Source: Aphrocallistes beatrix
Taxonomy: Eukaryota > Porifera > Hexactinellida > Sceptrulophora > Aphrocallistidae
Assembly: GCA_963281255.1 (NCBI GenBank)
Contig: OY725489.1
Coordinates: 1,984,001 to 2,048,000, forward strand
Direction: 5' to 3'
DNA length: 64,000 bases
Position numbers and translations under genes: made by a program
The notes under the pieces: model-generated
The model's input: the letters and a program-made list of their open reading frames with translations, nothing else
What the model was told of the DNA's origin: nothing
Database searches by the model: none
Part shown: positions 3,386 through 61,834 of the stretch, one piece after another
Layout: each line of letters starts with the position of its first letter
Numbering within the stretch: position 1 is the first letter of the stretch

Positions 3386-6300
3386 ATGTCCTCTGAAGAA
3401 GATCGTTACTCTCCTGAAGGCAGTGAAATAGACTCGCTACCTCATGATGAACGAATCAAGTCTATAAAACGTTTGAAGCATCAACAGATTACGCGATACC
3501 TGGAGTTGGAGCAAGAAGAGCTTAAGAAATCTACTCAGAACTTCAAATCTACCCAATCTAGACATCGCAACATAAAGTTGGACAGTTGCCATGTTCTTTT
3601 TGACGCTATAAACTCATTTGACGAAACTCTCGTAAAACGTCTCATTGTGGAGGAAGGGGTGGACGTGAATCTACAGAAGGCAGGTACGGGTACGACGTTA
3701 TTACACCAGTGCTGTATTGACGACAACATCTCATCGGCCAGACTACTCCTCGCACAGTTCGCTAGTCCTAATATCCAGGATAGCGACTTGTGGAGTCCCC
3801 TTCATGTTGCGAGTTTCTTAGGTAGACGCGAGCTGATCCAGCTCCTGATTCAATTCGACGCTGCTCCCGAGCTGTTGGATGTGGACGGCAACTTAGCAAT
3901 TGACTATGCGAATGGGGAAATCAAGCAATTGCTTCTAGCTTACATGCAGACCAAGGGGTACGATGAAAATAAAATGATTGCCATACGCACAGGTACGCGA
4001 AAGCAAATGCATACTGATGTACAGGCAATGATTGAACAATGTCAAGACTTGGACCGATATAATTCTCGTGGTGTTACTCTCCTACATGTAGCATCTGCTA
4101 ATGGGTACTATGAGAGTGCCAAACTACTAGTGAGGAACAACGCCAAAGTTAACATACAGGATGACAGAGGCAATACTCCTCTCCACTGTGCTTCGAAGTA
4201 CAATCATTCTAAGGTGACTAAGCTGCTCCTCAATAATAACGCCAACCCTCTTATGAAGAACTTCGACAGCGACCTAGCAACTGATCTGGCAGAGGAGGAC
4301 AGCCTTCGTGAGTTGCTTCAAGACTCTTGTCTCGCCTTCTCTGTCTCCTCCTCCGGCGTCGTCCATTCCAGTCTTCCTCTCTTCTCGTCTGAGCAGAGCG
4401 ACGCGGAGCTTCAAGGGGACAGTGAGCAGTTTGCCAACTCACTGCATGTAAGCAAGATGGTCATAGGAACCAGGATGAGCTACAGTAAACGAGAAGAACT
4501 ATTCGAGTACGAAACGATGTCAGACAAAGAGAGTTTCCTAACGAATGAGAATGAGAGCGAGAGGTCTCAGGCTGCCTGTGACAGAGTTGTTGCCAGGAAG
4601 TCTATGGCGCGCGCAGTGAAGCAGAAGCCTCAACTCCCTGAACAGTGTGGCTCGGACGACCTAGCCACACTTAGCAACATGTCTGAAAACATTGTGCTTG
4701 AGGAACTACGGCAGAGGTACGCTAAAGATCAGATATATACATATGTGGGAGATATCTTGATTGCGATCAACCCGTTCAAACTGCTACCCTACTACTCGCC
4801 TAAAGTAAGCAGGGAGTACTTCCAAATCCAGAGCCGGCAGTCAATCCCTCCTCACATATTCGCTGTAGCCGACCTCGTGTTCCAGGAGATGAAGGAGCAG
4901 AAGCACGCTCAGTGCTGTGTGATATCCGGCGAGTCCGGGGCTGGAAAAACAGAAACCAGCAAGTTCCTCGTGCAACATCTTCTCTCCAACACTCCCTGTC
5001 TCGAGTCCTCTCTCAATGTCAAAATCCAGCAGGCGTCTCCTCTCCTAGAAGCATTTGGAAACGCAGTCACAGTAATGAACGATAATAGCAGTCGGTTTGG
5101 AAAATATTTCGAAATAATTTTCAACGGAGAGGGAGCTGTGACCGGAGCGTTTTTCCGCGAGTACCTCCTCGAGAAGTCGAGAATAGTTTACCAGCCGAAG
5201 AGAGAGCGGAACTTCCACATATTCTACATGATGTATGCTGGCTTAACTGCGGAGGAGAAATCCCGGTTCAAACTATCCGATCCTTCACAGCACCGCAGTC
5301 TCACTGCGAATGGGATGAGACTGGATGGAGCTTTTGATGAAACTAGGAGGGCAGAATTTCAGGAGGTCAGAGACTGTCTGCAAGCTATTGGCTTCACAAA
5401 AGAAGATGAAAGCTCTCTACTCAACGCTTTGGCTGCGGTTCTGCACCTCTGCGATATCAGCTTCGAGCCTGAAGGAACTAACAAGGCAGCTAAGGTTACA
5501 AATACGTGTGTACTAGGGACAGCTTGCAGCCTGTTGGGAGTGGACAGCTCAGAGCTCGGAACTTCTCTAATAGAAGACACGCATGTAATCCACGGGGAGC
5601 AGACCATCAGGCAGAGAAATGTGCTTCAGGCCCAGGACTGTAGAGACGCGCTTGCTAAGGCACTCTATCAGCGAATGTTTGGATGGATAGTGAATAGCAT
5701 CAACCACTTGCTCTCTCCGCTCCAACAGCTGGAGAATAATCCAATAAAAATAGGAATTCTTGATATATTCGGATTCGAAAATTTCGAAAGAAATGGATTT
5801 GAACAAATGTGCATAAATCTCGCTAATGAGCAACTGCAGTATTATTTCAACGAGCACGTGTTCGAGTATGAAAAGAGTGAATGTCAGAAAGAAGGAGTGA
5901 ACACTGCTGCTATTAAATACACCAGTAACCGCCCCATACTGGACCTCTTCCTTGAGAAGCACAAAGGGATACTCGCCCAGATAGATGAGGAGTCCAAATT
6001 TAACACTTCAACTGATAAGTCCCTCGCACTTTCTCTACACCAAGGACATGAGAAAAATACTCGAGATATATATATTGCTCCTCGAGACCAGGGACCCACT
6101 TTCAGTGTTGTGCACTACGCTGGTATTGTGAAATACAATATCAATGGTTTCCTTGAGAAGAATAGAGATACTCTTGCGCAAGCCCTGCAGATGACAATGC
6201 GCACCAGTTCCAACCTCTTATTGAGGGATATGTTTGGGTCTAAACTGACACGTACTGGCTCTGTACAACCATCACTGAGACAGAAAAGTATGAGGAAGGG

Positions 6301-9300
6301 AGGGGAACAGTCTCCTTTTGCTTTCTTTAAAAAAAGACTCTCAAAGGAAATAAGAGCTAGTAAGCACCAGAAGAAACTGAAAGCTCCTGACACTAGGACC
6401 CGAGGACCTAATACAGTCGCTTTTCACTTTAGGAATTCTCTTCAGGAGCTCATGGACAAGATGTCTCAAGGAACTCCGCACTTTATTCGCTGTATCAAAC
6501 CAAACATACGGAAAGAACCGGATGCATTTAACCCCGACTTCATCCTCCAGCAGCTCCGCTACACAGGGGTGATGGAGACGACGAGGATACGCAGACAAGG
6601 CTACGCTACCCGCCTCACATTCAGCGAGTTCATTAAGCGCTATCCAGCTCTCAGAGCTACTTACTTGCCAGTTAAGAGCGGAGCTCCACACTCTGGAGAG
6701 GCAAGAACTATTCTGAATAAACTCCAGTTGAGAGACTGGGAGATCGGAAAGACTAAAATTTTTCTCAAGTACTACCATACGGAGCAGTTAGCTCAACAAG
6801 AGGAAAATGTTCTGAAGAAATATCTGATTTGTCAGAAAACGATCCGCGGCTTCATAGCTCGTTGTAAGTACGCTCGCCTCTGTGATCAGAAAGTGAGACA
6901 GATGGTAGTGGTGAGAGTTTTCTTAGAAACGATTCCTAACCAATTGCGTGATGTGAGTACTACGTTGGAATCCTTTTGTGCAGTTGATGTGGAGAAGGAA
7001 GTTTTGCGTCTAGAAGAAGAGAAGAGACTATGTGAAGAAGAAGAGAAGAGAATACGTGAAGAAGAAGAAGAGAAGAGACTATGTGAAGAAGAAAAGAAGA
7101 GAATACATGAAGAAGAAGAAGAGAAGAGATTACGTGAAGAAGAAGAAGAGAAGAGATTACGTGAGGAAGAAAAGGAAAAGAGATTACGTGAAGAAGAAGA
7201 AGAGAAGAGATTACGTGAGGAAGAAAAGGAAAAGAGATTACGTGAGGAGGAAAAAAAAGAAGAGAGAGAGAGATCTGCAAAAACAGAGAAAGAGACAAAG
7301 GGAGAGAAGTTAGAAACTATGGAAAATGAAGAGAAGAATCCATGTCAAAGTATATCTAGAACGCTATCTTATGCAGAAAAAGAAGTTATTCAGACCTTAC
7401 AACAAAAAATTTTCGCACAACAGAAGTTGCTACAGCAGTTGCTTAATCAAACTGCAGGAATTCCTAGTTCAATTGATACAGTGGCCATCAATGAATCTAC
7501 AGAAAACCAGTCGACTGCAGCTCAACTACAAGAAATTCAGGGTAAAATAGAAGAACTGCGACATGATAAAGTAGGAGAAAGTATGGACGATATCGAATTA
7601 AGCACAGAACCGCAGGAACCCGAGTTATCTGATACTGATAAGATGCTGTTAGAAATTGAAATAAAAATTAAAGAAATTGACAACTTCCCGCCGCACCCCG
7701 AACTTTCTCAACCAGAACCTGCATCTGTTCCTACGACAGAGCTAGTCCAACTTGATCAAGAGACATGCGAGCTAGCAGATCAACTGACAGAATTGGAGCG
7801 CCAAGAAGCGCTTGCTACAGGAAACTCTATCTCAACTCCCGAGACTTTTCACACTGATCCGCCCCTTCCCCCAGTCAGAACAACGCCTCTTCTTGACAAT
7901 TCAACTCTCTCTTTTGCTAGAGAAGATTCTAGGCTTCAGGCTTTAGATCAGAAATTGAATCTACTGCAAGAGAAAGAAGAACAGCTGAAGCAATTGGATT
8001 CAGCAGAATTTCTATTAGAGTTACCAGAATTAGGTAAAAACATGACTCAAGTGAAAATAAAACGAACACAGAGGAGCATTAAGATCAAGCGTGATCTCAA
8101 GGCTGTCAGGGATGAGCACCAGCGTTCTTTTTTAGAGAAACAGTATCAAGAAGTGAAAGCTGAACAAGCCATGAGGAGACAGCGGAATAGGGAGCAGCAA
8201 AGAAAAATACAGGAAAACCAGAACACTTTGCAGCAGAGAAGTAGGCAAGTTAATGATACCGAATTGGCTAAGGAAGCAAACTTTCTAAAAAAAAAAGGTG
8301 AGCTGATTGAGAAGAGACGCGAGATTAGCAAGAGACAGGAGGATGGGGAAGACATTGGCCATGTCCAGACCATCCTTAGTCAGAAAGACCACATCCTCAC
8401 ACAACTGCTCTCCCAATTGGAGCAAGAGAAGCGAAAGAGGTTGCAACAGGAACAGATAGAATTGAGTCAAATTAACAAGGAAAAGGAGCAACTCCATGAA
8501 GCTCTCAGGGAGGAGCAGGTGGTACGTCTTCAGGAAGAGAAATTACTCGAAAAGATAGAGAGATTGAAGGAATTGGAGGAAGAGGATAGGAAAGTGAGAC
8601 AAGCTGAAGAACACGAACTGATGAGGCAACTAACTACACCTCCTGGCTTGTTAGCTGCAATATCACCCGAACAGAATGAACCAACCGATCTGGAGAAACA
8701 ACTGCAAGTGCTGGAGCAGCAAGAGAAGATGTTAATAGAAACGGCTCCCTCTGTTCTGAATAAGAAGAAAGACCAAATGAAGTCAGTAGAGCAGCGCATA
8801 ATCCTGTTAGAACAGAAGGAGAAGGATCTGATACGACAGCTGGAAGGGAAAGCTGCGAGAGAGAATGAAGAGGCGAAACGAGTTCTTGAGAAGGAGAAGC
8901 TGCTACAACGACAAGAGCAGCTTCTGAAGAAGAAAGAGATGGAGGATGAAATGAAATCTCAGCAAGAAGAGCTAAAAAAGCAAGCTCGAGAGATGGAAGA
9001 GATGCAGCAGAGACTAGCAGTAATGGAAGAAGAAGCTAGTTCGAAGAAGAAGGAAATGATGGAGAGAGAAGTCCTTAGTAAACAGAAAGAAACAGAGGTC
9101 ATCCAGAGAGAAGAGGCTGTTCTAGTTAAGGAGGACGAGGTGAAGAAGTTGGAAGCGCAGTCTATTCAGAAAGAGCAGGCATTGAAAGAAAACGAGCAGT
9201 TAGTTAAGGAAATAACAGATAAACTCGAGGAAGAGAAAGAGACAAAGCAAGGAGAAGAAGAAAGAAGATATAAAGAACTTGAATCTAGAGAGATTAGTTT

Positions 9301-40530: not shown

Positions 40531-40751
40531 CACAGACTACGTTACTATAGACTATTCACTGAGTAATTTCTCCATTACCATGGATTACTTCAAGTCTATT
40601 TTCTAAACCACCCATAAAGTTTGAATACAAATTTACTACTATTCAGTCTAGGTCAATTTTTTATTACATTCTAATTATCACACCATTCACCCCTCCTTTT
40701 TTGCTTATACTCTCTATTTACCATTTTCTTCCTTTTTTATTTGCTAGAAAC

Positions 40752-41162
40752 ATGCCCAATAGGTGTAATGTTGCTAATTGCACTTCAAATTATGATGGTA
40801 CTGAATATACTCCTGTATTTGAGATGTTGGATCACTGGCCAAAGGAAGTACAAGATGAATGGAGAAAGTTTTTACACCGAGATGATGCCTGGCAATTGAC
40901 CAGAGTTTTTATCTGTGCTAAGCATTTTAGTGAGAAGGACCTGTTACTTGCTGTTGAAATACCTCAGAGCGATGGTTCTATCAATAAGTTTCCCCGCAAG
41001 CCTGGTCTTCACAAAGGTGCAAAGCCTACCCTTCTACCAAATTGTCCATCTTACTTACAAGGTCAAAATGAACCTGCGGAACGTCTTGACCGTGATGAAA
41101 TAGATATCCGACACTTCCATCGTGCGCTTGAGTTGAGTATTGCTGAGCACCAAACAGAATGA
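40752..41162 (+). CDS. THAP-domain protein of the P-type transposon
   Basis: 136 residues beginning MPNRCNVANCTSNYDG. The THAP zinc site is C5 and C10 near the start with FICAKHF (C and H of the C2CH set) at about residue 56-62, plus basic PRKPGLHKG later. THAP domains give P-type transposases their specific DNA binding. The ATG at 40,752 is chosen because it places THAP at the very N-terminus; TTTGCTAG just before it could be a splice acceptor. It stops at 41,162, and the rest of the transposase continues in another frame from about 41,163, so this may be an exon or a truncated protein. Confidence 0.75.
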   Translation: MPNRCNVANCTSNYDGTEYTPVFEMLDHWPKEVQDEWRKFLHRDDAWQLTRVFICAKHFSEKDLLLAVEIPQSDGSINKFPRKPGLHKGAKPTLLPNCPSYLQGQNEPAERLDRDEIDIRHFHRALELSIAEHQTE

Positions 41163-44642: not shown

Positions 44643-44801
44643 CCTTCAATGCAGCAATGGATACTCGACATCGATGTGTTACTATCTGGAAGGAAAGGCG
44701 GAGATTCGTATCATGTTAGACTACGCAATTGTTCATTTACCCTCTAGTACTATTCTTGACTTGGTATGCTAATAACCACAATTAGGAGGTATTAAAATTC
44801 C

Positions 44802-44823
44802 TTATTCGACAGTCGCTTAACTC
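44802..44823 (-). repeat. KDZ left subterminal repeat, one 22-bp unit
   Basis: One copy, inverted relative to the four copies at the right end. Possible transposase binding site. Confidence 0.75.
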
Positions 44824-44966
44824 TTCGTTGGTGGTAAAATTACATCAGAATTATCAACAATTTTGTCTATCTGAAAATATAAATAGGACCTAAGTATATG
44901 GACATAATGTTTTCAAAATATTCTTTTGTTTCTTGTTGTCTTTTCATTCAAAATCTTTGGTCCAAC

Positions 44967-47900
44967 ATGAACAAGGTCAACGCTCGCAATATTCTTTCAC
45001 GTACCTGTGACCAGTTTTACAAAACTACTTGCGAGGTGATATCATTGACTTTTACCTGGAATGGTACTCTAACTGTATACGGCCCAGATGCCTTTAAGCA
45101 GTTAGTAACAGACAAGAAAGATGATATTTTTGAAAGTTTATCCCAGCCCTCGTGTAATAGACAAGGTCGATCATCAAGAGATAAACATAAATCGAAGCCC
45201 TTGATTGATGAGCACATGCGAGAGTTGCTGGATGGAGATATCAAAAAATATTCTCGTAGTACACTGAGAAAACTCGTATCGTGGGCTGTTCAAGTTTCAA
45301 TTGGTGAGTTGTACTCCAAATGTTATCTAATGTTACTCGAAACACAATTATTCTCGCAAATAAATCTTAATTAATATGATGAAGCAATATACATGCATGT
45401 ATTTGCATATACAGTCGACTCCGCTTAATAGAGCCACTGTTTAATCGGGTCAGCCGCTTAATCGGGCCACTTTTGGCAGGACCGGAATAGCTCTCACACA
45501 TAGAAGCTAATACAAAATATTTTCGGTTAATAGGGTCCTCCGCTTAATCGGGGCAAAATGTCCTCTGACAGATGTGGCCCTATTAAGCGGAGTCGACTGT
45601 ATTTTTGTAGGTTGTGGACGGAACTTTTGGGGTGTGGAGGAGCTAAAGCCGGTCTGGTGGCCAAACAGAATAAAATTCCAAAATATATCCAAGACAAATG
45701 TGACCAAGAATGCCATAATTGATATACTAATTTTGTATATGGAATACAGTAATATTCCATTAGTAGCCACGAATGAGCACACATCTAAAAAGGTTGTTAA
45801 CAACTCAATAAAATCTAACAACATTACGAGCACACCCAAAAGAGCATGCACACACTCACTCGTTGTTGCACCTACAGAAATAAAACAACGACTAACAGAG
45901 AATTACATTGATGAGATCATTCCAACCTCTGAGAACTCATTTTTTGAAGGTTTACCATTTGTACCACAAGTTAATCAAGAGAAACTGCCACTTAGTCCTG
46001 ATGTCATTGATATCACAGATGTGGGAGCATCTGAATAACGTTATGCAGACGGATGGCAGTACTATCAGCGATACTTCTATTATACTGAATGCTGCTAAAA
46101 TTTTGAGACAATCCAACATAGATACATGTCTGCGTGAACTTTCGCAGCCTGACGAGTGGCTCTCAGATGTTACAATAAACTCTTTCTGCGTGAGCATACT
46201 AGAAATAAATTTAAATAAACTACGCATCTCATTTACACATTAAAACTTTTGCTTATTTTTCAAGATCAATTCATTCCTTCTTATTTCATTAAATATATGA
46301 CTTAGACTTCGCTGAAATACAGCTATCCTGATGTCAACGGATTACAAGACACGATCTTTTCACAGGTAATCTAAGTATTAATTTTATATTTATATATATG
46401 CCATGGACCAAAGTGTAAATTGGCCAAGATTCACAAATCTTGGCCAGTTTACACTTTGGTCCATAACATATATAGTAGGACCTTTATATTTATTGATTAT
46501 GCGAAACTCTAAAACGAAGATATTCTATCTCGTAACACGGACTTCTTAAATACACGGACTTTCAACTTCATTTTACGGTAAAATTAGCGTAGGCTGAAAA
46601 TTAATATCGATGAGTTACGTTTGGTACATTTGGCATCACATTTTTGGTGATATATGTATTATTGTTGAATAGGAAGTAGCATATGCTGATTTCATTGGCC
46701 ATATTGGAATACTTGAAATATTTGTGGTTTTTGAGTTTCTGCGGTTTCAACACCTTCCCTTATATGGTAATCCCGTTAATAATTCGTAATTGGTTAGAGT
46801 TAGACATGTCAAATGTACTATTGTTGGATAGGAAGTCATACATAAAGTGTCATTTGAGCGTATCGACTGATCTTAGTTATGTCTGACCTTTTTGATTCCG
46901 TGGTTTTCACACCTTCATATATCTCTACTATTAAAACTCGATTAATCTATATAATATATATAAATATCTGTAACGAATTGATTGAAGAAACTGTCAAGCC
47001 CAGAAGGCTGATTTTTGGTATGTGGAAGTATTTTGGCTATGGCAATGATGCACAAAAATCACCGAATTAGTCAATTTTTAAAATTCTTAAGCGTAATAAT
47101 GACGTCATAACGGAGTGATGTGTCATAATTTTTATATGATAGTTGCATCATATGTGAGGTATGTTAATATACACATTCTCTTAAAATTTCAGCCTTCTAT
47201 GCCCTAAAATGGCTGAGTTATGGTCAAAAAACTGAAATTTCTAATTATAAAAAATGTGACAATGACGTCATAATTCCATGATGAGCCGATATTTTCGTCT
47301 GAGCTCAGAATTTACTGGAGCCATAGCCAAAATACTTCCACATACCAAAAATCAGCCTTCTGGGCTTGACAGTTTCTTCAATCAATTCGTTACAGATATA
47401 TATATATTATATAGATTAATCGAGTTTTAATAGTAGAGATATATGGAGGTGTGAAAACCGCGGAATCAAAAAGGTCAGACATAACTAAGATCAGTCGATA
47501 CGCTCAAATGACACTTTATGTATGACTTCCTATCCAACAATAGTACATTTGACATGTCTAACTCTAACCAATTACGAATTATTAACGGGATTACCATATA
47601 AGGGAAGGTGTTGAAACCGCAGAAACTCAAAAACCACAAATATTTCAAGTATTCCAATATGGCCAATGAAATCAGCATATGCTACTTCCTATTCAACAAT
47701 AATACATATATCACCAAAAATGTGATGCCAAATGTACCAAACTCATCGATATTAATTTTCAGCCTACGCTAATTTTACCGTAAAATGAAGTTGAAAGTCC
47801 GTGCATTTAAGAAGTCCGTGCTCGTAAGGAAGAAAATACAAAACGAATTTCGGATAATACGAAAAAAATTCTACTGCCCCCTTGTGTTCATATTAACAAA

Positions 47901-48417
47901 TTTCTACTCTATGTATATACGTATATGAATGACTAATGCATTGTCCGAAAGGACTAGACAGTATAATTTACTCGAAATGAATTCAGACTACGTAGATTCA
48001 GACCATAATTAATTTTTTATCATATTCTAATTAACATTGTAGAAACTTCGATTTCAGAAAGCCTTACGCAATCGCCTTAGTATACAGATACATTCCTGTG
48101 GCAAACACTGGGTATGTTCTAAGTACGATGGTAAAGGTGGAGTATATCTATACGGCTCTTTGTACAAGAGGAAAACAAGTGGAGACTTAGATACACAACT
48201 GGCATTATTGTATGCCGACAAAAAATCGCGTCAGCTTTTAGTAACAGTTCCCAATATACAGCAGCAGAAGGGTAGTTCTGATTGTGGCTTGTTCTCATTA
48301 GCTGTGGCTATAGCCATTGCTGCTGGTATTAATCCTGAAACACAATCATGGAATCAGGATCAAATGCGGTATCATTGTATCAGATGTATAGTAGAAGAAC
48401 GAGTAACTCCATTCTAA
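44967..48417 (+). CDS. Transposon-borne NRF1/EWG-like DNA-binding domain joined to a Ulp1-type (C48) protease
   Basis: Proposed exons: 44,967-45,303; 45,611-about 46,020; about 46,040-46,189; 46,306-46,365; 48,058-48,417. The first two splice in phase (GTGAGT donor, TTTTGTAG acceptor) to give TLTVYGPDAFKQLV, then LRKLVSWAVQVSIG, then CGRNFWGVEELKPVWWP. This mirrors the NRF1/EWG domain, where a VFGxxPLxxVV motif is followed by an LRxFIPxML helix and GWGxExxKPxWWP. The protease part reads DEWLSDVTINS, SYPDVNGLQDTIFSQ, IHSCGKHWV (catalytic His) and QQKGSSDCGLFSLA (catalytic Gln and Cys). The Asp expected before the SL of the YDSL-type motif is Gly (YLYGSLY). A frame change near 46,030 is unexplained: either a tiny intron or a mutation. 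Role inferred: element-specific DNA binding plus SUMO/ubiquitin-like protein cleavage. Gene unity is an inference. Confidence 0.55.
45412..45599 (+). mobile_element. Family B pogo-like MITE inside intron 1 of the KDZ plus-strand gene
   Basis: 188 bp, TA flanks, intact ends. Its right end lies 11 bases before the exon 2 start, directly against the acceptor TTTTTGTAG. Confidence 0.85.
46403..46465. repeat. 63-bp near-perfect hairpin
   Basis: ATGGACCAAAGTGTAAATTG and its complement flank a loop of about 8 bases (TTCACAAA); stem about 27 bp with one mismatch. Could be a tiny MITE or a structured RNA in the intron. Confidence 0.8.
46530..47830. repeat. 1.3-kb palindrome in an intron of the KDZ gene
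   Basis: Arms of about 510 bp (46,530-47,043 and 47,318-47,830) are almost identical inverted copies: both encode the same 67-residue frame on opposite strands (46,683-46,886 and 47,475-47,678). Each arm contains the 5' end of a family A element (TCTCTACTATTAAAACTCG), and the spacer is the remaining family A body in reverse. Few differences were seen (one 5-bp indel, a handful of substitutions). Confidence 0.85.
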
Positions 48418-48419
48418 TA

Positions 48420-48635
48420 AGCAGTACACGTGGAGTACGCACAGGGAAACTACCAGAACCACATCAATTTATCATCAATCTAATTTGCAAGTGTAACCTA
48501 CCAATCTACGCTTATGTGGGAAAAAGTGCAAGTTCAGTGAAACACACGATTGAATGTGATACATGTGGAGACTGGTTCCATAATGAATGTGTTGGTTTTT
48601 CTGACCGCTCTACTATTGATGTTTTAGTTGTCTAG
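48420..48635 (+). pseudogene. PHD-like zinc finger ORF after the Ulp1 domain
   Basis: Frame containing ICKCNLPIY, then TIECDTCGDWFHNECVGFSD: C-x-C, C-x2-C, W-F-H-x2-C, the first ligands of a PHD finger. It ends in a stop before the last C-x2-C pair; a duplicated 14-bp block (GTTTTAGTTGTCTA twice) sits there and a SCLTC reading exists in another frame. It overlaps the protease frame by a few codons and may be a further exon of that gene. Confidence 0.5.
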
Positions 48636-48753
48636 TTTTAGTTGTCTAACCTGTGTTAAATTGCCATTATTCACATATTAACACATAATTACTCTACATA
48701 TGATATCAATTTTTAGGCTGAGAACTAATCAAATACATAATTATCTTCCTATT

Positions 48754-51700
48754 CTAGGTCTTTATAATAACATTTTTATTCCAACTCGCTAAAAAATAAC
48801 GAGTTGTGAAGAAGACATTCTCAACACGCATGTACGCAATCTGCGTAGCAATTCTTCGTAGGGTTGAAAATAATTGCTCACAAATTTCTGAATTTATTTT
48901 TTTCATTTCATCTGTAGTCCAGGTTTTCATCGAAAAGATTGGTTCACAACGATGATTTTTGCTATGAAACCTGTCAACTAAAAATGTTGTGTCACGAAAT
49001 AAAGCAGGATCCCAACAATAGGAGAACATCTAAAAATACCTAGGTTGAGACAAATGCCCATTAATATTAAAAATATTACCTCATATTTGTAGTCGTGCTT
49101 AGGTTATAGGCATTGTCATAGATGATCACAGCTGGGGAGTTCTAAATTTTCTTAGGAGCATATTATAAATAACAATGGTTGACTCTCTTGAAGTTAAAAT
49201 TTCAAACCCATAGCAGATCTTGTGCTAACAAGCCATTACAATTAATCCAGGAGAGAATCTCTGATGCTTAGGGTAAAGTTTTGTACAAGTTGACATTGTA
49301 TCACCAGTTATTTTTCCATACTGTGGAATCCTATAACAAAATTCATATTCCTTACAATTTTTAATACAGTGATAACAAATATAATTACTTATATGATATA
49401 ACTTACTTGTAGTTACCTTGTAATCCCGGGAAATACTGGTAGATGTCTTGTTCATTGAGACTATGTTCTACCAATTTTCGAGATGGCTTCTTGAATAAGG
49501 TTCTAATTTTAGTCATAATCGCCGCTAATAACATGGCGAGTTTCGATGCAAAACGATGGTGTTTAATTTAGTGTTGAGGGAAGGCGGGATGGAAGAAAGG
49601 CGGGATGGAAGAAATACATTTTGGTGTATACATCTGTCAATTCTTTTAGCTTTACTGATTCACCATTCGCTAACGAAACTAATAATTTCCGCTCGTAGCT
49701 AGATAATGTTGAAAATCTAAATATCGCGCATATAGATTATGTGCGTGTAAATAATTTAATGACTTGTTCAGCTAGGGGATATATTGGAGCGATCGAGACA
49801 TGTGAACTATCACATTCTGCAGTGAAATTTAGATAATCAGCAAATTCTGGCATCTTGATGGTTTCTATGAGTATTTTAAATGATGAGTTGTTAAGTCCTC
49901 TCACTATGTATTCTTGTAGTGCTTTTCGAGCCTCAATATTAGAAATCAGAATGCGCTCCTCAATAGGGACAAGGGGCAGTAACTGGGTAGTATCGATGTG
50001 TGAAGGTGTTTCCGGGATCGTTCTTGTTGTGCCCATTGCTATGCCATCTAAAACGATAATTGGTGGCTTATCTTGGCATGTCGAGCATTTGAAATTTGTA
50101 GTATAATCAATATCGACTTCTCTTAGATAAGCATTCCAAGCCTGTTAAACGATATGATATTTGTACTTAAGCTCTCTCCCCATCTTGAAAGTTTGTTGTT
50201 CTTCGCTCTTTTAAGAGAATACGAGACAATCAATTATTATAATAATAATATTATCATTGTAAACAATTAAATCCTATCCAGTTTATATATGGATTATATC
50301 TACGATAGTAACATTTCACTAAAGCGAGTTTACTCTTTAAATCTTGAAAATATTCCCCTAAAAATTATAAGAAGTTTTCAGTTAATCATCTATTTTAAGT
50401 CCACACCCCACGGATGATCATAAAGCACCAGATACTGGCTTTTCAATAAAATGTATGCAACATTAAATTAACCGATATTATGCAGAATAGGAGAGAAAGA
50501 GTATAACTTGCAGTCCCTAAATTTTTAAATATTAAACTTACCTTAAGTAACTAAACAAAGGGTTTCTAGAGACAGTCATCATCTCACTATATTCATACAA
50601 CAAATTGTAATGAATATAATAGTGGTTGTTAAGATTCAGAAGTAGGAAATCATGACCATTAAACACGCTGTGACACTTGCAGGGTCCACTACAGAAAGTA
50701 CTGTACACTAGAAATAGAGAAATATTAGGTCAAAATTCTAAGAATAATTCATTAATTTGTGAATTAGTCAACTTAGGGTCAAATACCTGAACCACACATC
50801 TAATTATTATACATACCGTATATATTTACTATATTAACTAGTAACTTGATTATTTCTTAAACAAACAAAACTCCTTTTAAAATACCTTGATGGTCACGGA
50901 GTTCACGTACTTCATTTTTCAGATATAAGATAACGCCTTTCTTTTCTAACTTCAAGTTAGAAGCATCAAATCCATATCCATTTATGCATATCCTTCTATC
51001 TGGCATTAGTTGTTGGGGTAAGTGTATTCATAAATTTCGGCTTGATGGTGATTTAGAGAAAATGGAATAGGTGTTGATGAACTATTAATAGTAGCGAATC
51101 TTACTTCAGTTTGCTTTCGGGTGACAATTTCGGGATTATCGAATATTTTCTCTGCAATAACATTAATTTTGCAGATTGTTGTGCAAGTATCGCAATACCA
51201 TCTATTCTGCCGTAACCTATACATATGGATTGTGTATGGATCCATTATAATGATAGTGACATTGTCTATAATGAAGTAAGTTGTATCCTGACACGTCTTT
51301 GGTTGTATTGTATTGAACGAATTGTTGTAGCTGAAAAAACATTTTTCAAATGCTTAGACACGACAAGTGTAGACACGACAGTGACATACAATCGTTGCAA
51401 AAGGGTTCATTGATGTCTATTCTAATATATCTGTCTTTAAGAGATAGTGTACCTATAATGAATGAGATGATAGGTAACTTCATTTCAATATTATACGTAT
51501 ACATCTTCCTGAAATTGTCTAATTTAACAAAATTGTAGCGATCGTAGAGCAGAATGCTACAAGGAGGGATGAGTTATTTTAAGCGTATTAGATAATCGAA
51601 TATTATAATACCAGTGCAAAAATATTTAATTAAATATCTACATATTCACCATTAATTAGTCTAGTGATAATTGCATATAGAAAGTATCCAAAAGGGAGAT

Positions 51701-52029
51701 AGACTGGATACACTGCACATTATATCTTACTATACTAACCAACCTTCAGAAATAGAGTAGTCTTGAATCAGTGCTATATTGGTATCGAGAAGTTGCCATA
51801 AAACCTCGTTTCGCGAAAGAAGCTGAATATATTGTAGGCCATGTGAAATTTCTAACTGTGCTGCCTCATAACAAAAATCGAGCGATTCATTATAATTTGT
51901 CAATTGTGTACGTTGCTCTTTATTAGAAATACCAACACTTTCGAATAATGAGAAAGTCTCTTCCATCTCCATAGATTTTCTCCTTTTTTTAGTTGGTTTT
52001 AAAATCAGAAAATTTTTGTTGTCAGCCAT
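48754..52029 (-). pseudogene. KDZ transposase, multi-exon, with damage
   Basis: Minus-strand pieces in order: 52,029-about 51,742 (start MADNKNFLILKPTKKRRK, basic, possibly nuclear targeting); about 51,265-50,886 (WYCDTCTTIC and RICINGYGFDASN, with a frame change near 51,005); 50,707-50,542 (SGPCKCHSVFNGHDFLLLNL); 50,141-about 49,540 (FKCSTCQDKPPIIVLDGIAMG, first catalytic Asp, then about 120 further residues and a frame change); about 49,530-49,435; 49,330-49,080 (TKLYPKHQRFSPGLIVMAC, TAG stop at 49,225, VIIYDNAYNLS with the second Asp); 49,029-48,754 (FLVDRFHSKNHRCEP, KINSEICEQLFSTLRRIATQ with the Glu). This order is that of KDZ transposases. The stop and at least two frame changes suggest it is dead, though only recently. 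Confidence 0.75.
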
Positions 52030-52091
52030 GTAGTTACTAATATTTTTAGAAACCTAATACAGTAGTTCGATAGGAGTTCAATTGCGAATAC

Positions 52092-52179
52092 GAGTTAAGC
52101 GACTGTCGATTAAGAGTTATGCGACTGTCGATTAAGAGTTAAGCGACTGTCGAATAAGAGTTAAGCGACTGTCGATTAA
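52092..52179 (+). repeat. KDZ right subterminal repeats, four 22-bp units
   Basis: Unit GAGTTAAGCGACTGTCGATT + AA, four head-to-tail copies with two single-base variants. Confidence 0.85.
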
Positions 52180-52191
52180 GAGTATTTAATA

Positions 52192-52568
52192 CCGTATTGC
52201 TTCGAATAAGCGCCCGGGCGCTTATTTATTTCGTGCACCCTTTAGACCCGGCGCTTATTCAAACCGGCGCTTATTCAAGCCCCGGTGCTTATTTTTTTCA
52301 TTCGCTATTTTGACCCGGCGCTCTTTTTTTTGTTTACTACATTGACTGGCACTTTTATTTTTGCCACAACTGAGAATGTTAGTTCTATTAAAAAAGGATA
52401 ATGTAATGTTTCAAAAAGCACTTCTATCTATGCCACTACTGAGAATACTAGTTTGATATGATGTTCAGAGAACTAAAATGCCCCGGCGTCCGACGCTTAT
52501 TCGAGCCCCGGTGCTTATTCGAGCCCCGGCGCTTATTCAAGCCCCGGCGCTTATTCAGGGAAATACGG
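52192..52568. mobile_element. Family H MITE with GCGCTTATTC repeats
   Basis: TA flanks; ends CCGTATTGCTTCGAATAAGC and CAGGGAAATACGG. Arms carry repeated CCCCGGCGCTTATTC units. Inserted at the right edge of the KDZ element. Confidence 0.75.
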
Positions 52569-52639
52569 TATATGCAATTAGTGTTGATTATTGATTATTT
52601 GTACTAAAAGCCATATATTGAAAATTACTTTTCGCATGC

Positions 52640-52840
52640 GAATAAGTAACAATTACGGATCAGATTCAAGGAACTGCCAAACTAAAAATTTGGACCCCCC
52701 TAGGATGGTTCCCCGGTTCTTATATTTCGAAATATTTGGACACCCCCTCGAACTAATATTCAGTATCATACAAAATATAGGGACCACCATTATGCAGAGT
52801 CAATTGCAAGAGAAAAGTCGACCAGAGGACTAGTTTTCAG
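52640..52840. repeat. Family K fragment
   Basis: Shares GATTCAAGGAACTG and the TATTTCGAAATATTTGGAC region with 58,360-58,510, in inverted orientation. Confidence 0.5.
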
Positions 52841-58359: not shown

Positions 58360-58672
58360 ATGATCATGATCTTCGTACTACCTTAGGATCATGATCTTCT
58401 CTGAAATATTGGTTCCGGTTGGTCCAAATATTTCGAATTGTAGGGCCGGGAGATACCATCCTATAAGGATCCAATTTTTTTTGTGACAGTTCCTTGAATT
58501 TGATTCTTAATTGTTCGCATGCGAATAGTGGCTTATTCGCAAGCAAATAGTAGCTTATTCGCATGCGAATAGTGAGGTATTGAAAAGTACTGCGAGCATG
58601 CTCACTAGTACTGAGAGCATCCTCATTAGGTACTGAGAGCATGCTCATTTTACGAATACTTGTAAGCTTTAA
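58360..58672. repeat. Family K element arm
   Basis: Repeated TTATTCGCATGCGAATAG and ACTGAGAGCATGCTCA blocks ending ACTTGTAAGCTTTAAT. The inverted partner is at about 61,400-61,535. Confidence 0.6.
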
Positions 58673-58925
58673 TTTTTAAAGGTAGTTGTTTTCAATCTGT
58701 TCCATTGAGCGGTTTTAACCCTTTTCTTCTTACCCTTAAATGGCACTGGCAATGTTATGACAAGCTGAATGCATGGTTCCTTTGGGAGCCGGACACTTCC
58801 CCCCCGGACATTTCCCCCCTGGACACTTTTCACCCGTTAATGTATGACATTTTCACGCGGACAATTCCCCCCAAACGGTTTACATTGATCACCTCTATGT
58901 TGATTATTTACACTAAATAGAATCC

Positions 58926-59820
58926 ACCCAAATTTGTGGTGTTAACAAAAAACTATCGATGGATGTTTTTTCACTTTTCTCAGAATATTTATCGAAAAAT
59001 CCATTCAGGAAGATGCGATACCAATATATGGCTGATGAAACTTTCTCAATCGATGCTAGCAGCATTAGCATTTGTTTCTTTAAATGACATAATAAATGCA
59101 TTCGATATGGTTGTAGCCCGGATGCCAGAATAACTTGATCCAATAATAGATTATTTCGAAAAAAATTATATTGGAGTGATGCATCGTCGAGGAAAACGTC
59201 CGCCAAAATTCCCGCTAGAATTAGGGAATATAAATAATCGGTTTGAAGAAGAAGTTCCGGAAACAAATAACCACGTAAAGTAAAAGTAAAGTTTATAGAT
59301 TTACATATATACCCCCCGAATCCATGCTAATATGTTCTCAGGGGGTTCACAATCTGGGTGAGGTGCTAAACCTACTGATTGTTGCTGACTGAGGTGTATG
59401 CAGCATGTGTGTATGTATATGATAGCATGTTTACAGAGAAAAACTCGGCTATCAGTAGACAAGAAATATAGCACCTAACTTTACCTTTAGCAAGATGACA
59501 TCCCTTAGTGCTTTCAGCTCACTAAGGTTCTGCAAGAGTGTAGGCTCAGATTACATTTCCGAAGCAAAGTAATTGAGAACAAAATGCAAATGACTAGGAC
59601 GAGGTTAGAACCCGTGACCTAAGTCTTGGTGTTCAAACGCCATAACCACTGCACCACCCAAGCAGAATTGGAGATGATTCAAATGGAAGCTGGCGAAGCA
59701 CCTTCTCCTCAGAAAATACCTTGAATCTAATAACAGAATACAAGCTATTGTTAAGGATATGCCAATATAAGTACTCTTACCATTCTTAGAGGAATAGCCC
59801 ATAATTTATCTTTCTAAAAT
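58926..59820 (+). pseudogene. MULE transposase relic, split by a SINE
   Basis: Before the SINE: GCFFHFSQ-like FFHFSQNIYRK (58,965-58,997), MLAALAFVSLNDIINAFDM, YFEKNYIGVMHRRGKRPPKF and ETNNHVK. After it: EMIQMEAGEAPSPQKIP and LTILRGIAHNLSF to 59,818. This is the C-terminal half of a MULE transposase of a different subtype from that at 39,372. About 30 residues expected at the insertion are missing. Inactive. Confidence 0.65.
59283..59660 (-). mobile_element. tRNA-derived SINE
   Basis: On the minus strand the head reads GGGTGGTGCAGTGGTTA (matches the RNA polymerase III A box TRGYNNANNGG) and, 40 bases on, GGGTTCTAACCTCG (B box). It ends in a tail of ACTTTT-type repeats at 59,283-59,300. About 380 bp. 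This is the only retroelement recognised in the window. Confidence 0.75.
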
Positions 59821-59843
59821 TATTATATTATATTCCTTTTAGC

Positions 59844-60522
59844 CATAGACTCCTTTAAGTAAGGACTGTAGGCGTTCAATCTCGGGTCCTGGATCTTGGG
59901 TCCATTGTGTATTATTGATAGCCCGTAATCCGCTCAAGTTAGACATGTTAGACATTAAATCTTAAGGTTTTCGAGATATGGTGCAATATATTTTATGAAT
60001 CATATTTGTTAAATTGCACCATATCTCGAAAACCTTAAGATTTAATGTTATTAAATGTATTAGGAGCTAATAGAAAGTAACCTATTATCTATCAAATATA
60101 GTCAAATTTGACTGTCTAACTGTAACGGTTTTCAAGATATATGGTATACTTACGTTTCCATAGCAACGCTGGAATGTAGCAACATTCCATTTGAAATGTC
60201 CAAATATTTCGAATTAACCCGTTCCTACCTTGATTATCTTCGAAAATCATACATTAATAACGCTTTAAAATGTGCTTAAAACAGATCAGAAAATTGCCAA
60301 AATGTATCTTAAATCTGTGAAAAACCACATAACTCACATTCCACACATAGTTGAGGTAGGCCATCATGACCAATGGACTCTAAAAATACGACTTCCTATT
60401 CAACAATAATACATCTCCCATGTCTAACTTGAGCGGATTACGGGCTATCACTAATACACAATGGACCCAAGTCCCAGGACCCGAGATTGAACGCCTACAG
60501 TCCTTACTTAAAGGAGTCTATG
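59844..60522. mobile_element. Family J foldback element, complete
   Basis: Ends CATAGACTCCTTTAAGTAAG and complement, 8-bp duplication CTTTTAGC (59,836-59,843 and 60,523-60,530). Arms fold around a centre near 59,990-60,010. No gene. Confidence 0.85.
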
Positions 60523-60671
60523 CTTTTAGCCTAAATTGTATGGTATTCGTTTAATTATTATTAATTTTCAAATAATTTAACCAAATAATTATTACATTAT
60601 ATATTAAAGACATCTTAATATATAAACAATCAATGGGGGGAAAAATCACTCATTAACGGGGGGAAGTGTCC

Positions 60672-61395
60672 TAGACCCAGCTCTTTTAGATCTGCGAAGT
60701 TTGTTGTGTGTGGTATTTCCATTTTTTGTCAGGAAATACATGCATCGTAGGGCATCCCGAAAAGCAACTTCATCAAGTGTAAGAATGCTAGCATCTTCAA
60801 TTCCTTGTCTGTTTTGTTGCAGCCCGTCCTATTTCCTCATTGTAGGTAATTGCACTTGCTTCATGGGCAACACAGCCTTCGTGTTGTAGAAGATGGTCGG
60901 GTTGGTTCTCCGTGAACGCCTCACTTACAAATACTTTGTTTTGATGCCCCCATCTTCTTTTAACACCAGCCAGGGATGCTTATCCCATCACTTTGTGTCA
61001 GCAAAAGATCGCCAGGAAAACCTTTTTCCCGGCGTGTTGTCGAACTCGAGTACACTATGAGTACACTATGATTCATCCAGGGATTTTGTAGAGTCAGTTG
61101 TGGAATGTGGCCAGTGAGATCTGTTCTAGACTGAAGGTAATATGCCTTTACTGACCAACTTTCGCCTTCTTCTTGGTGGCAAATAGCTAGCAAACGACAT
61201 CGCAATGAGTGAAAGGCATATGGAGACGAACCGAAGTGCCATGCAATTTATCGAAATAACTGGGTGATTAGATGCTGGTACGATCTAAACAAAATTGAAT
61301 GTATGTAGTAGTATGTATATTTGTTATATTACAAGTCTCATTCACGCACATATATTTGGCTAATTTATAAACTTTGGACCAGATATATATCGATC
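60672..61395. other. Unassigned; possible decayed coding DNA on the minus strand
   Basis: A frame at 60,960-61,205 has ordinary-looking composition (WSVKAYYLQSRTDLTG, then NPWMNHSVLIVYSS) but I do not recognise it, and flanking frames are broken. Confidence 0.3.
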
Positions 61396-61535
61396 CATTA
61401 AAGATTAAAGCTTACAAGTATTAGTTAATAAGCTCTCAGCACAACTGAGCATGTTCTCAGTACGTAATGAGCATGCTCTCAGTACTTTTTTTTAATAAGC
61501 GAATAGTAGCTTATTCGCATGCGAATAGTCGTTTT
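61396..61535. repeat. Family K arm, inverted partner of 58,360
   Basis: AAAGCTTACAAGTATT, TGAGCATGCTCTCAGTAC and TTATTCGCATGCGAATAG in mirrored order. The pair brackets 58.7-61.4 kb. Confidence 0.6.
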
Positions 61536-61834
61536 TATTACCTCCTAAAAGCACACCTTTCGAGATTCGGTTTAATTTTAAAACATATGTACCTGACAGG
61601 CTTGGACCGGGTCAAGATTTTTTGACCCGGTGACCCGACAGACCCGGTTTGGTATGACCCGCCATGACCCATTATTCTAGGAAATCCTTGTTTTATGGTT
61701 ACACATTATTAAATATTGATGTTGATAAATTAATTACGTATATATATATTAGAAATTGACTACTACTAGATTGAATGATCATTATAATAGAGAAAGCTTA
61801 AAATAATTTAAGTAAAGTAAAGTATTGAAGTTCG

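Follow-up and report, generated by a model that had tools for sequence, protein, structure and literature searches.

The window, as the whole 64,000-nucleotide stretch of Aphrocallistes beatrix DNA analysed here is called, encodes a domain of the type found in NRF1, EWG and P3A2 inside a transposon of the KDZ (Kyakuja-Dileera-Zisupton) type, which raises the question of how a regulator domain of this family came to be part of a mobile element and what it may do there. The element (44788..52193, no strand assigned) is bounded by inverted terminal repeats of 38 nt (44788-44825 and 52156-52193, 87% identical) and has the same gene order as its relatives. Comparison of repeats and units places one unit of the 22-bp type (CTTATTCGACAGTCGCTTAACTC) with the left repeat (44788..44825, plus strand) and an array of four 22-bp units containing CGAC-N-GTCG palindromes with the right repeat (52092..52193, minus strand). 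The transposase gene (48754..52053, minus strand) has several exons and is interrupted by stops in the window copy, including four in-frame TAA codons in the stretch 49551-50222 that matches the transposase of the relative L032. Its match to the KDZ profile PF18758 (48754-49029, minus strand, 9.8e-6) reaches 25.9 bits and narrowly misses the cut-off of 26.6; of four relatives scanned as a pair of joined transposase exons, L037 and L039 exceed this cut-off (42.2 and 45.9 bits) and L038 and L032 fall below it (24.2 and 23.0 bits). Like KDZ transposons generally, the elements combine a KDZ transposase domain and terminal inverted repeats with the expected target duplications of 7-8 bp, found at three insertions of group A (ACAGTAC, AAATATG and ATAGCTT) and at L038 (GATGATTT), L037 (CAAAAAAA), L032 (CAATTTG), L056 (CATTTCAC) and L057 (CATAGGC); none was seen at L058 or at the window element.

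Opposite the transposase, on the plus strand, exon 1 (44967..45303; PF10491 on the spliced product, alignments) encodes the NRF1-type dimerisation domain and a helix with the R206 equivalent (TLRKL), and exon 2 (45611..46038; frames, PF10491, alignment) encodes the remainder of the NRF1-type DNA-binding domain, with the W224 and N242 equivalents, and a linker. A reading made from the sequence only had proposed that these exons splice in phase, that three quoted motifs follow in order, that the domain is of NRF1/EWG type and that it lies between KDZ ends opposite a transposase, and all of this is borne out. The exons join (donor CAATTG/GTGAGT, acceptor TTTTGTAG/GTTGTGGA) to give 254 amino acids, across a phase-1 intron (45304..45610, GTGAGT...TTTTGTAG, plus strand) that occupies the identical place in 17 copies of the gene and in which a repeat search found a small inverted-repeat insert (45409-45602, plus strand). 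The spliced product matches Pfam PF10491 (Nrf1_DNA-bind) at 1.1e-10, its 42 bits exceeding the cut-off of 23.5, with residues 32-143 on profile positions 67-178; seven of eight other families also pass this cut-off, the eighth, L024, scoring 19.7 bits. By sequence, the window product finds solved NRF1 in the PDB (8k3d, 1e-5; 8k4l, 1.1e-5), the sole further row to E 10 standing at 1.6, and a profile built from nine element copies only, compared with all PDB chains, finds NRF1 more strongly (8k4l, 6.4e-11; 8k3d, 5.9e-9; next row 0.44). That the exons merely mimic NRF1 by chance is extremely improbable: single exons of some copies do score weakly (in L037, exon 2 has 16.7 bits against PF10491 and exon 1 no match), but the window match, the seven families above the curated cut-off and the element-only profile led to rejection of a chance likeness. 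The predicted structure of exon 1 alone was uninformative (mean pLDDT 39.8).

In the part of the NRF1-DNA structure report cited here, R206, N242 and R244 contact bases and W224 contacts the backbone (PMC10810270). Alignment of the elements with NRF1, with the numbering checked, shows that the R206 equivalent is kept in all 11 element rows, W224 in 10 (Cys in L024) and N242 in 8 (Cys in L024 and L008, Asp in L016). Unlike in NRF1, the R244 position is Arg in only 2 of the 11 rows, being otherwise S, T, K or Y, and the C-terminal part of the element protein is shorter.

A further difference from NRF1, EWG and P3A2 is that the element protein, in a multicopy transposon, extends into a Ulp1-like protease, to which a PHD finger is added. 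The sequence-only reading had drawn the join to the protease in the window itself; it is visible in the complete relatives L032, L037 and L038, where exon 2 continues in one open frame into the Ulp1-like start and the PHD finger comes after the Ulp1-like part, but not in the window copy, because exon 2 ends at a stop codon (46036-46038, plus strand, by frame reading) and the frame changes before 46106. On the plus strand there follow the motif at 46106..46186 (RQSNIDTCLRELSQPDEWLSDVTINSF), presumably the likeness of a Ulp1 domain start; a small exon (46306..46365, TSLKYSYPDVNGLQDTIFSQ) predicted from letters and frames only; and the Ulp1/C48-like catalytic exon (48058..48417; 48043-48417 for the Ulp1-like exon with the PF02902 score given below). 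A near-perfect inverted repeat of 1.28 kb (46536..47820, no strand assigned), found by repeat search, lies within an intron. The assignment to the Ulp1 type holds for a profile of six copies, which matches Ulp1/SENP structures in the PDB (6dg4, 4.5e-4; 7fiu, 0.0074; SENP1, 0.058), but not for single copies, since all five sequences scanned, drawn from four copies (the window, L037 twice, L038 and the joined L037 pieces), remain under the PF02902 cut-off of 20.7 bits, the window exon having 18.6. Across the alignment of the window copy with five others, H, Q and C are invariant and the Asp position holds Gly in the window, Asp in four others and Asn in L032; H, Asp, Gln and Cys are taken here to be the catalytic positions of Ulp1/SENP (C48). 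Because of this Gly and the four TAA codons in the transposase, the window copy is a decayed one. Its PHD-finger remnant (48537..48611, plus strand) is in a different frame from the protease exon and passes the PF00628 cut-off (1.8e-6). Fish Zisupton elements likewise have an extra Ulp1-like gene beside the KDZ transposase; we know of no NRF1 domain in them.

The NRF1-type gene forms 61 clusters in this genome by our own count, and these are distinct from the NRF1 gene of the host. The element protein is therefore a relative of NRF1 and not NRF1 itself, and the single-copy habit of that family does not extend to it. Recurrence beside KDZ transposases, which the sequence-only reading had suggested looking for, is pronounced: the gene lies convergently within 12 kb of 26 of the 33 strong KDZ-transposase matches (E<1e-20), against a mean of 0.12 and a maximum of 2 in 2000 trials of random placement over 19 of 28 contigs, one of them (C10) at a guessed size. 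The co-location count used 73 of 188 NRF1-type, 66 of 97 Ulp1/PHD and 50 of 86 KDZ rows, once weak rows, duplicates and any second piece of an already counted place had been removed. KDZ copies without the gene, which the same reading had named as contrary evidence, amount to 7 of the 33, and 3 of these 7 still have a Ulp1/PHD match. Two copies counted as gene-less have matches to known families, L070 at 86% and L071 at 59%, and are thus kin of gene-bearing families. Neither Ulp1/PHD nor KDZ is in place at 21 of the 61 clusters. A one-off passenger or capture was rejected on the 61 clusters and the 26 KDZ matches with the gene.

Element copies were seen in this one genome, apart from P0003 in another record, which is 53% identical to L037 (the best among the loci compared) and is perhaps from the same species, because its source has this host's NRF1 letter for letter. 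Two protein searches returned the window's own pieces and P0003. A search with human and host NRF1 rows in the query gave 378 matches, the best 120 of which all have PF10491; such a query fills with NRF1 and is poor at finding elements elsewhere. No relative was found in the viral contigs searched. A Pfam KDZ search of the sponge's own genome gave no match, yet gave none in any control genome either, and so is uninformative.

Palindromes with CATG at their centre, mostly 22 bp apart, occur at the ends of the elements; these terminal arrays are absent from the sequence-only reading and were first seen in this analysis. Five family groups have at their ends exactly GCGCATGCGC, the published NRF1 site, and other families have variant sites. 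Within the terminal 200 bp, palindromic 10-mers centred on CATG number 4+3 in L037, 2+2 in L038 and 2+2 in L032, all exactly GCGCATGCGC, compared with 0, 1 and 1 in their interiors, none of them GCGCATGCGC, and with shuffled-sequence means below 0.1 (maximum 2). One group A copy, its middle covered in part, has 7+6 copies of GAGCATGCTC at its ends. Genome-wide, TGCGCATGCGCA occurs 125 times and the same pattern read backwards twice; one terminal 15-mer has 123 copies and none backwards, with GCATGC within 4-14 bp after 94 of the 123. At least one clean CATG palindrome lies near an end in 12 of 18 groups, grouped by eye and with the upstream sequence of a small number of copies falling outside one of the compared sets; among these twelve, L029 and L030 have one palindrome each, L024, L027 and L049 have one or none, and the member copies L040, L046 and L052 have no clean one. 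No clean CATG palindrome was found in the other six groups (window/L004/L014, L012/L039, L045/L051/L054 with imperfect ones, L010, L013 and L053), the last kinds of which were counted without the element end itself being located. The window family has no CATG-centred palindrome at its ends and has the CGAC-N-GTCG units instead, a departure from the NRF1 site.

The residue at position 242 covaries with the third base of the site, Asn accompanying G (L032, L037, L038, L029, group A, group D and L015/L050), Asp accompanying A (L016) and Cys accompanying C or T (L024 and L008), whereas L030, where Cys accompanies G, and the window family, where Asn occurs without G, are exceptions; this is suggestive only, because the families are related. 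The subterminal repeats of many transposons are bound by their transposase, and the terminal palindromes might likewise be bound by the KDZ transposase, leaving the NRF1-type protein only to regulate host genes or to some other task. This is unlikely: the window family does keep R206 though it lacks the CATG palindrome, but several families have sites that agree with the published target of the NRF1-type domain, and most families with other sites retain the CATG centre, read by R206. Since the ends of several branches carry the exact DNA target of NRF1, the comparison suggests instead that the NRF1-type protein grips the ends of its own element and that NRF1 and the elements have a common origin.

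Across 12 families the NRF1-type gene and the transposase have diverged together (Mantel r 0.53, p 1e-4); their trees contain the identical deep split (92 and 98% bootstrap). Three rows of the test are composite: L008 combines pieces of L008 and L022, L015 has exon 1 of L015 and exon 2 of L050, and L041 takes its NRF1-type part from one group D copy and its transposase from another. By a codon test, constraint on exon 1 is supported between families, where pS is mostly 0.66-0.90 (near saturation) and pN mostly 0.31-0.50, and weakly supported within them, where dN/dS is mixed: 0.17-0.22 in the two pairs with at least 5 changes among the stop-free group D copies (L041, L042 and L043), 0.26-0.38 in pairs with L047 (one stop) and 0.47-0.76 in pairs with L048 or L055, with several pairs from one and the same family lying at 0.5-0.85 (0.84 for the window against L005), and counter-cases in L028/L044 (1.28, 5 changes), L009/L024 (1.16, 13 changes) and L030/L053 (0.99, 40 codons).

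As to origin, the sequence-only reading had offered capture of a host NRF1 domain or descent of NRF1/EWG from such an element. That the element took up this host's gene recently is unlikely, both in view of the co-divergence and because, with the element profile, human NRF1 reaches 50 bits and this host's NRF1 only 31 bits. An older capture, in which NRF1 was the first to arise, in animals, before an ancestral KDZ element took its dimerisation and DNA-binding domains and later gained NRF1 sites at its ends, is possible but doubtful. In its favour, NRF1 belongs to the host and has a long branch to itself, and KDZ elements are known as carriers of foreign genes, for example TET/JBP, acquired repeatedly according to the part of that account cited here (PMC12730594); the ten open reading frames of L037 and L038 that were scanned gave no TET/JBP match (E up to 0.1). 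Against it, the capture would have to be both old and single, given the co-divergence and common intron place; the host NRF1 frame covers both domains without an intron; and host NRF1 falls below human NRF1 with the element profile.

Most probably, the window holds a decayed member of a diverse KDZ lineage with a convergently placed accessory protein, NRF1-type, Ulp1/SENP-like and PHD in its parts, that acts at the element's own ends. The computed basis for this is the NRF1 homology, the recurrence and gene order, the run-on of exon 2 into the protease, the intron, the co-divergence and the end palindromes. The palindrome-less window family and the five further groups like it, the mostly unkept R244, the replacements at N242, L024 and the protease below their cut-offs, the 21 bare clusters and the sighting of element copies in a single genome were counted against it. 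What sets these elements apart from other KDZ transposons is their accessory gene of NRF1 type, together with arrays of palindromes spaced at 22 bp. The accessory protein would dimerise on the arrays and either pair the ends or regulate element genes, the attached protease may remove SUMO from silencing factors or transposase there, and the PHD finger may read histones. TnpA of En/Spm binds subterminal repeats and would be an analogous second element protein, its DNA-binding domain being, to our knowledge, unrelated to the NRF1 type.

NRF1/EWG and the element protein would go back to one common ancestor, and the direction of descent may be the reverse of capture. In the tree, NRF1 attaches inside the elements, beside L020/L041 (83.9/69) and within a split of 94.4/94; on the other side, NRF1 sits at the end of a very long branch (2.17), which makes attraction possible, the tree has only three NRF1 sequences and no outgroup, and the distant KDZ copies L067-L072 (L069, too short, left out) gave no usable root. 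Among 12 families the element domains have radiated broadly, with identities of 29-60%, and some families have the exact NRF1 site. It is a serious, if tentative, possibility that NRF1/EWG was domesticated from the accessory protein of such a KDZ element and retained its target site, in which case the site that NRF1 uses genome-wide, GCGCATGCGC, would be the terminal repeat of an ancestral transposon.

The window contains a decayed KDZ-type transposon (44788..52193) that encodes a relative of NRF1 opposite its transposase. The two NRF1-type exons proposed in the sequence-only reading (44967-45303 and 45611-46038) are present and join in phase, and their assignment was borne out by the 254-amino-acid spliced product, which matches Pfam Nrf1_DNA-bind (PF10491, E = 1.1e-10, 42 bits, cut-off 23.5) and, by sequence comparison, NRF1 chains 8k3d and 8k4l. 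Of the Ulp1-type protease said to be fused to them, a Ulp1-like exon was found on the same strand, with a profile score below the cut-off (PF02902, 18.6 bits). A PHD finger downstream on this strand scores above its cut-off (PF00628, 1.8e-6), the KDZ transposase on the opposite strand scores slightly below (25.9 bits), and 38-nt terminal inverted repeats flank all of these together. Decay of the window copy is evident throughout: exon 2 reaches a stop ahead of the Ulp1 start motif and the motif is in a different frame, the protease and PHD finger do not share a frame, the protease has Gly at the position aligned with Asp of other copies (Asn in locus L032), and the transposase has four in-frame TAA codons across its matched stretch. 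An intron of the element contains a near-perfect 1.28-kb inverted repeat (46536-47820; arms of 347, 94 and 81 nt matching at 97-99%). Elsewhere in the window, an open reading frame (40563-41162) begins with CNVANCTSNYDGTEYTPVFEM, a putatively THAP-like start.

The mechanism was read from better-preserved relatives rather than from the window copy. In three of these (L032, L037 and L038), exon 2, which encodes the latter portion of the DNA-binding domain, continues in a single open frame into a presumed Ulp1-type start motif (LLSDITINAF, FLSGICINSF and FLTDTTLNAF, respectively), followed by the Ulp1 catalytic part and PHD finger in one open reading frame (L032 and L038) or two overlapping ones (L037). 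The intron between the NRF1-type exons has an identical place and phase in 17 copies, with exon joins predicted so as to preserve frame; donors are GT in 15 and GC in two (L020, L044), the acceptor is always AG, and an AG 6 nt upstream is equally usable in L032 and L025.

The protein encoded by this KDZ-type element is related to NRF1. Seven of eight further element families pass the PF10491 cut-off, and a profile of nine element copies alone, compared with the whole PDB, retrieved NRF1 (8k4l, 6.4e-11; 8k3d, 5.9e-9; next row 0.44), with matches extending from the middle of the dimerisation domain through most of the DNA-binding domain. According to PMC10810270, the NRF1 crystal structure has base contacts from R206, N242 and R244 and a backbone contact from W224, and the dimer prefers GCGCATGCGC. 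The 11 element rows all retain R206, while 10 have W224, eight have N242 and two have R244 (residue numbers verified on P0037); in an alignment of eight elements with human and host NRF1, R206 and W224 are invariant and N242 nearly so.

Six-frame searches of the genome (100.5 Mb, 28 contigs) gave 89 matches to the spliced window protein (E up to 1), 99 to its L032 version (E up to 0.01), 97 to Ulp1 plus PHD and 86 to the L032 transposase. In the rows selected, the NRF1-type gene forms 61 clusters: Ulp1/PHD downstream and a convergent KDZ transposase accompany it in 31, Ulp1/PHD only in eight, KDZ only in one and neither in 21. Conversely, 26 of 33 KDZ matches (E<1e-20) have a convergent NRF1-type gene no more than 12 kb away (no more than 6 kb in 25 of them), versus a mean of 0.12 and a maximum of 2 under random placement; 28 of the 33 have Ulp1/PHD, and four have neither. 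The host's own NRF1 gene is separate from the elements, a single open frame of 485 amino acids. At L033, an NRF1-Ulp1-PHD gene with arrays of palindromes at both ends (4279-7663) has no transposase among the open reading frames between the arrays; nearby, a long one (3-1331), perhaps another mobile element, includes VGDGNCYFRALS, a presumably OTU-like stretch.

Many copies have, upstream of exon 1, a block at the terminus that resembles CATATATTRAAAAGT or GAGGTATTRAAAAGT, and then palindromes; in copies covered at both ends, the palindromes occur at both. Exact GCGCATGCGC occurs at the two ends of L037 (4+3), L038 (2+2) and L032 (2+2), and once each in L029 and L030 (single end seen); a group A copy has 7+6 GAGCATGCTC and L033 has 5+4 AAGCATGCTT. 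Palindromic 10-mers centred on CATG number 0, 1 and 1 in the interiors of L037, L038 and L032, and average <0.1 in shuffled ends. Other families have CCGCATGCGG, TCGCATGCGA, GCACATGTGC or GATCATGATC, all with CATG at the centre. Neighbouring palindromes usually lie 22 bp apart, in other cases 21, 24 or 44 bp. The window family differs: its 22-bp units carry CGAC-N-GTCG, and a CATG palindrome was sought at its ends and not found. Genome-wide, TGCGCATGCGCA occurs 125 times versus 2 for the backwards-read pattern, and 31 of the 50 places listed have a neighbour no more than 70 bp away. For the terminal 15-mer GAGGTATTGAAAAGT the count is 123 (63+60; backwards-read, 0), with GCATGC 4-14 bp past it in 94 (46+48), nearly all at 7 bp; the half-site in these is mostly AGAGCATGC or TGCGCATGC within one scaffold.

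Other ends occur elsewhere in the window and at L057. A nested pair of relatives in the window (58515-61540) has outer ends with TCGCATGCGA (58515, 58559, 61515) and inner ends with GAGCATGCTC, from GAGGTATTGAAAAGTACTG at 58574 (sites 58594, 58637, 61469). Two GATCATGATC sites 25 bp apart (58362, 58387) resemble a group D element end, and an end remnant of another family, CATATATTGAAAATTACTTTTCGCATGCGAATAAG, as in L008/L022, lies just beyond the window element (52612-52646). L057 (1-200) has a GAGCATGCTC array and then a GCGCATGCGC array, side-by-side ends of two families that probably reflect nested insertion.

Group A copies L018, L019, L020 and L031 are 99.4-99.8% identical across 2.5 kb, and three group A insertions have 7-bp direct repeats (ACAGTAC, AAATATG and ATAGCTT; two could be 8 bp). 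Direct repeats also flank L038 (GATGATTT), L037 (CAAAAAAA), L032 (CAATTTG), L056 (CATTTCAC) and L057 (CATAGGC); none was seen at L058 or the window element. L056 and L058, with 2.5 kb and about 0.9 kb between arrays, look like short derivatives, judged from their ends alone. Target duplications are reported to be 7 bp in Kyakuja and 8 bp in Zisupton (PMC12730594).

Across 12 families, three of them represented by composites of different copies, distances between NRF1-type domains correlate with those between transposases (Mantel r 0.53, p 1e-4). The two trees agree in separating {window, L024, L008, L030} from the rest (92 and 98%). This pattern fits a single old association better than several captures. 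The joint tree places NRF1 next to L020/L041 (83.9/69), inside a split supported at 94.4/94, with a branch length of 2.17; because this tree has no outgroup, the position is not read as a direction.

KDZ elements and gene-carrying KDZ are already known (PMC12730594), and a literature search found nothing linking NRF1 with KDZ; a KDZ element that pairs an NRF1-type accessory gene with NRF1 sites at its ends is, to our knowledge, new. From the observed domains, sites and co-location we infer the binding and enzymatic steps: the protein most likely dimerises on the arrays at its element's own ends and, once bound, would help to pair those ends, direct the transposase or regulate genes of the element. 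The Ulp1-like part would remove SUMO in the vicinity, and the PHD finger would read histone tails. The NRF1-type protein would then work like an accessory end-binding protein of the element that encodes it.
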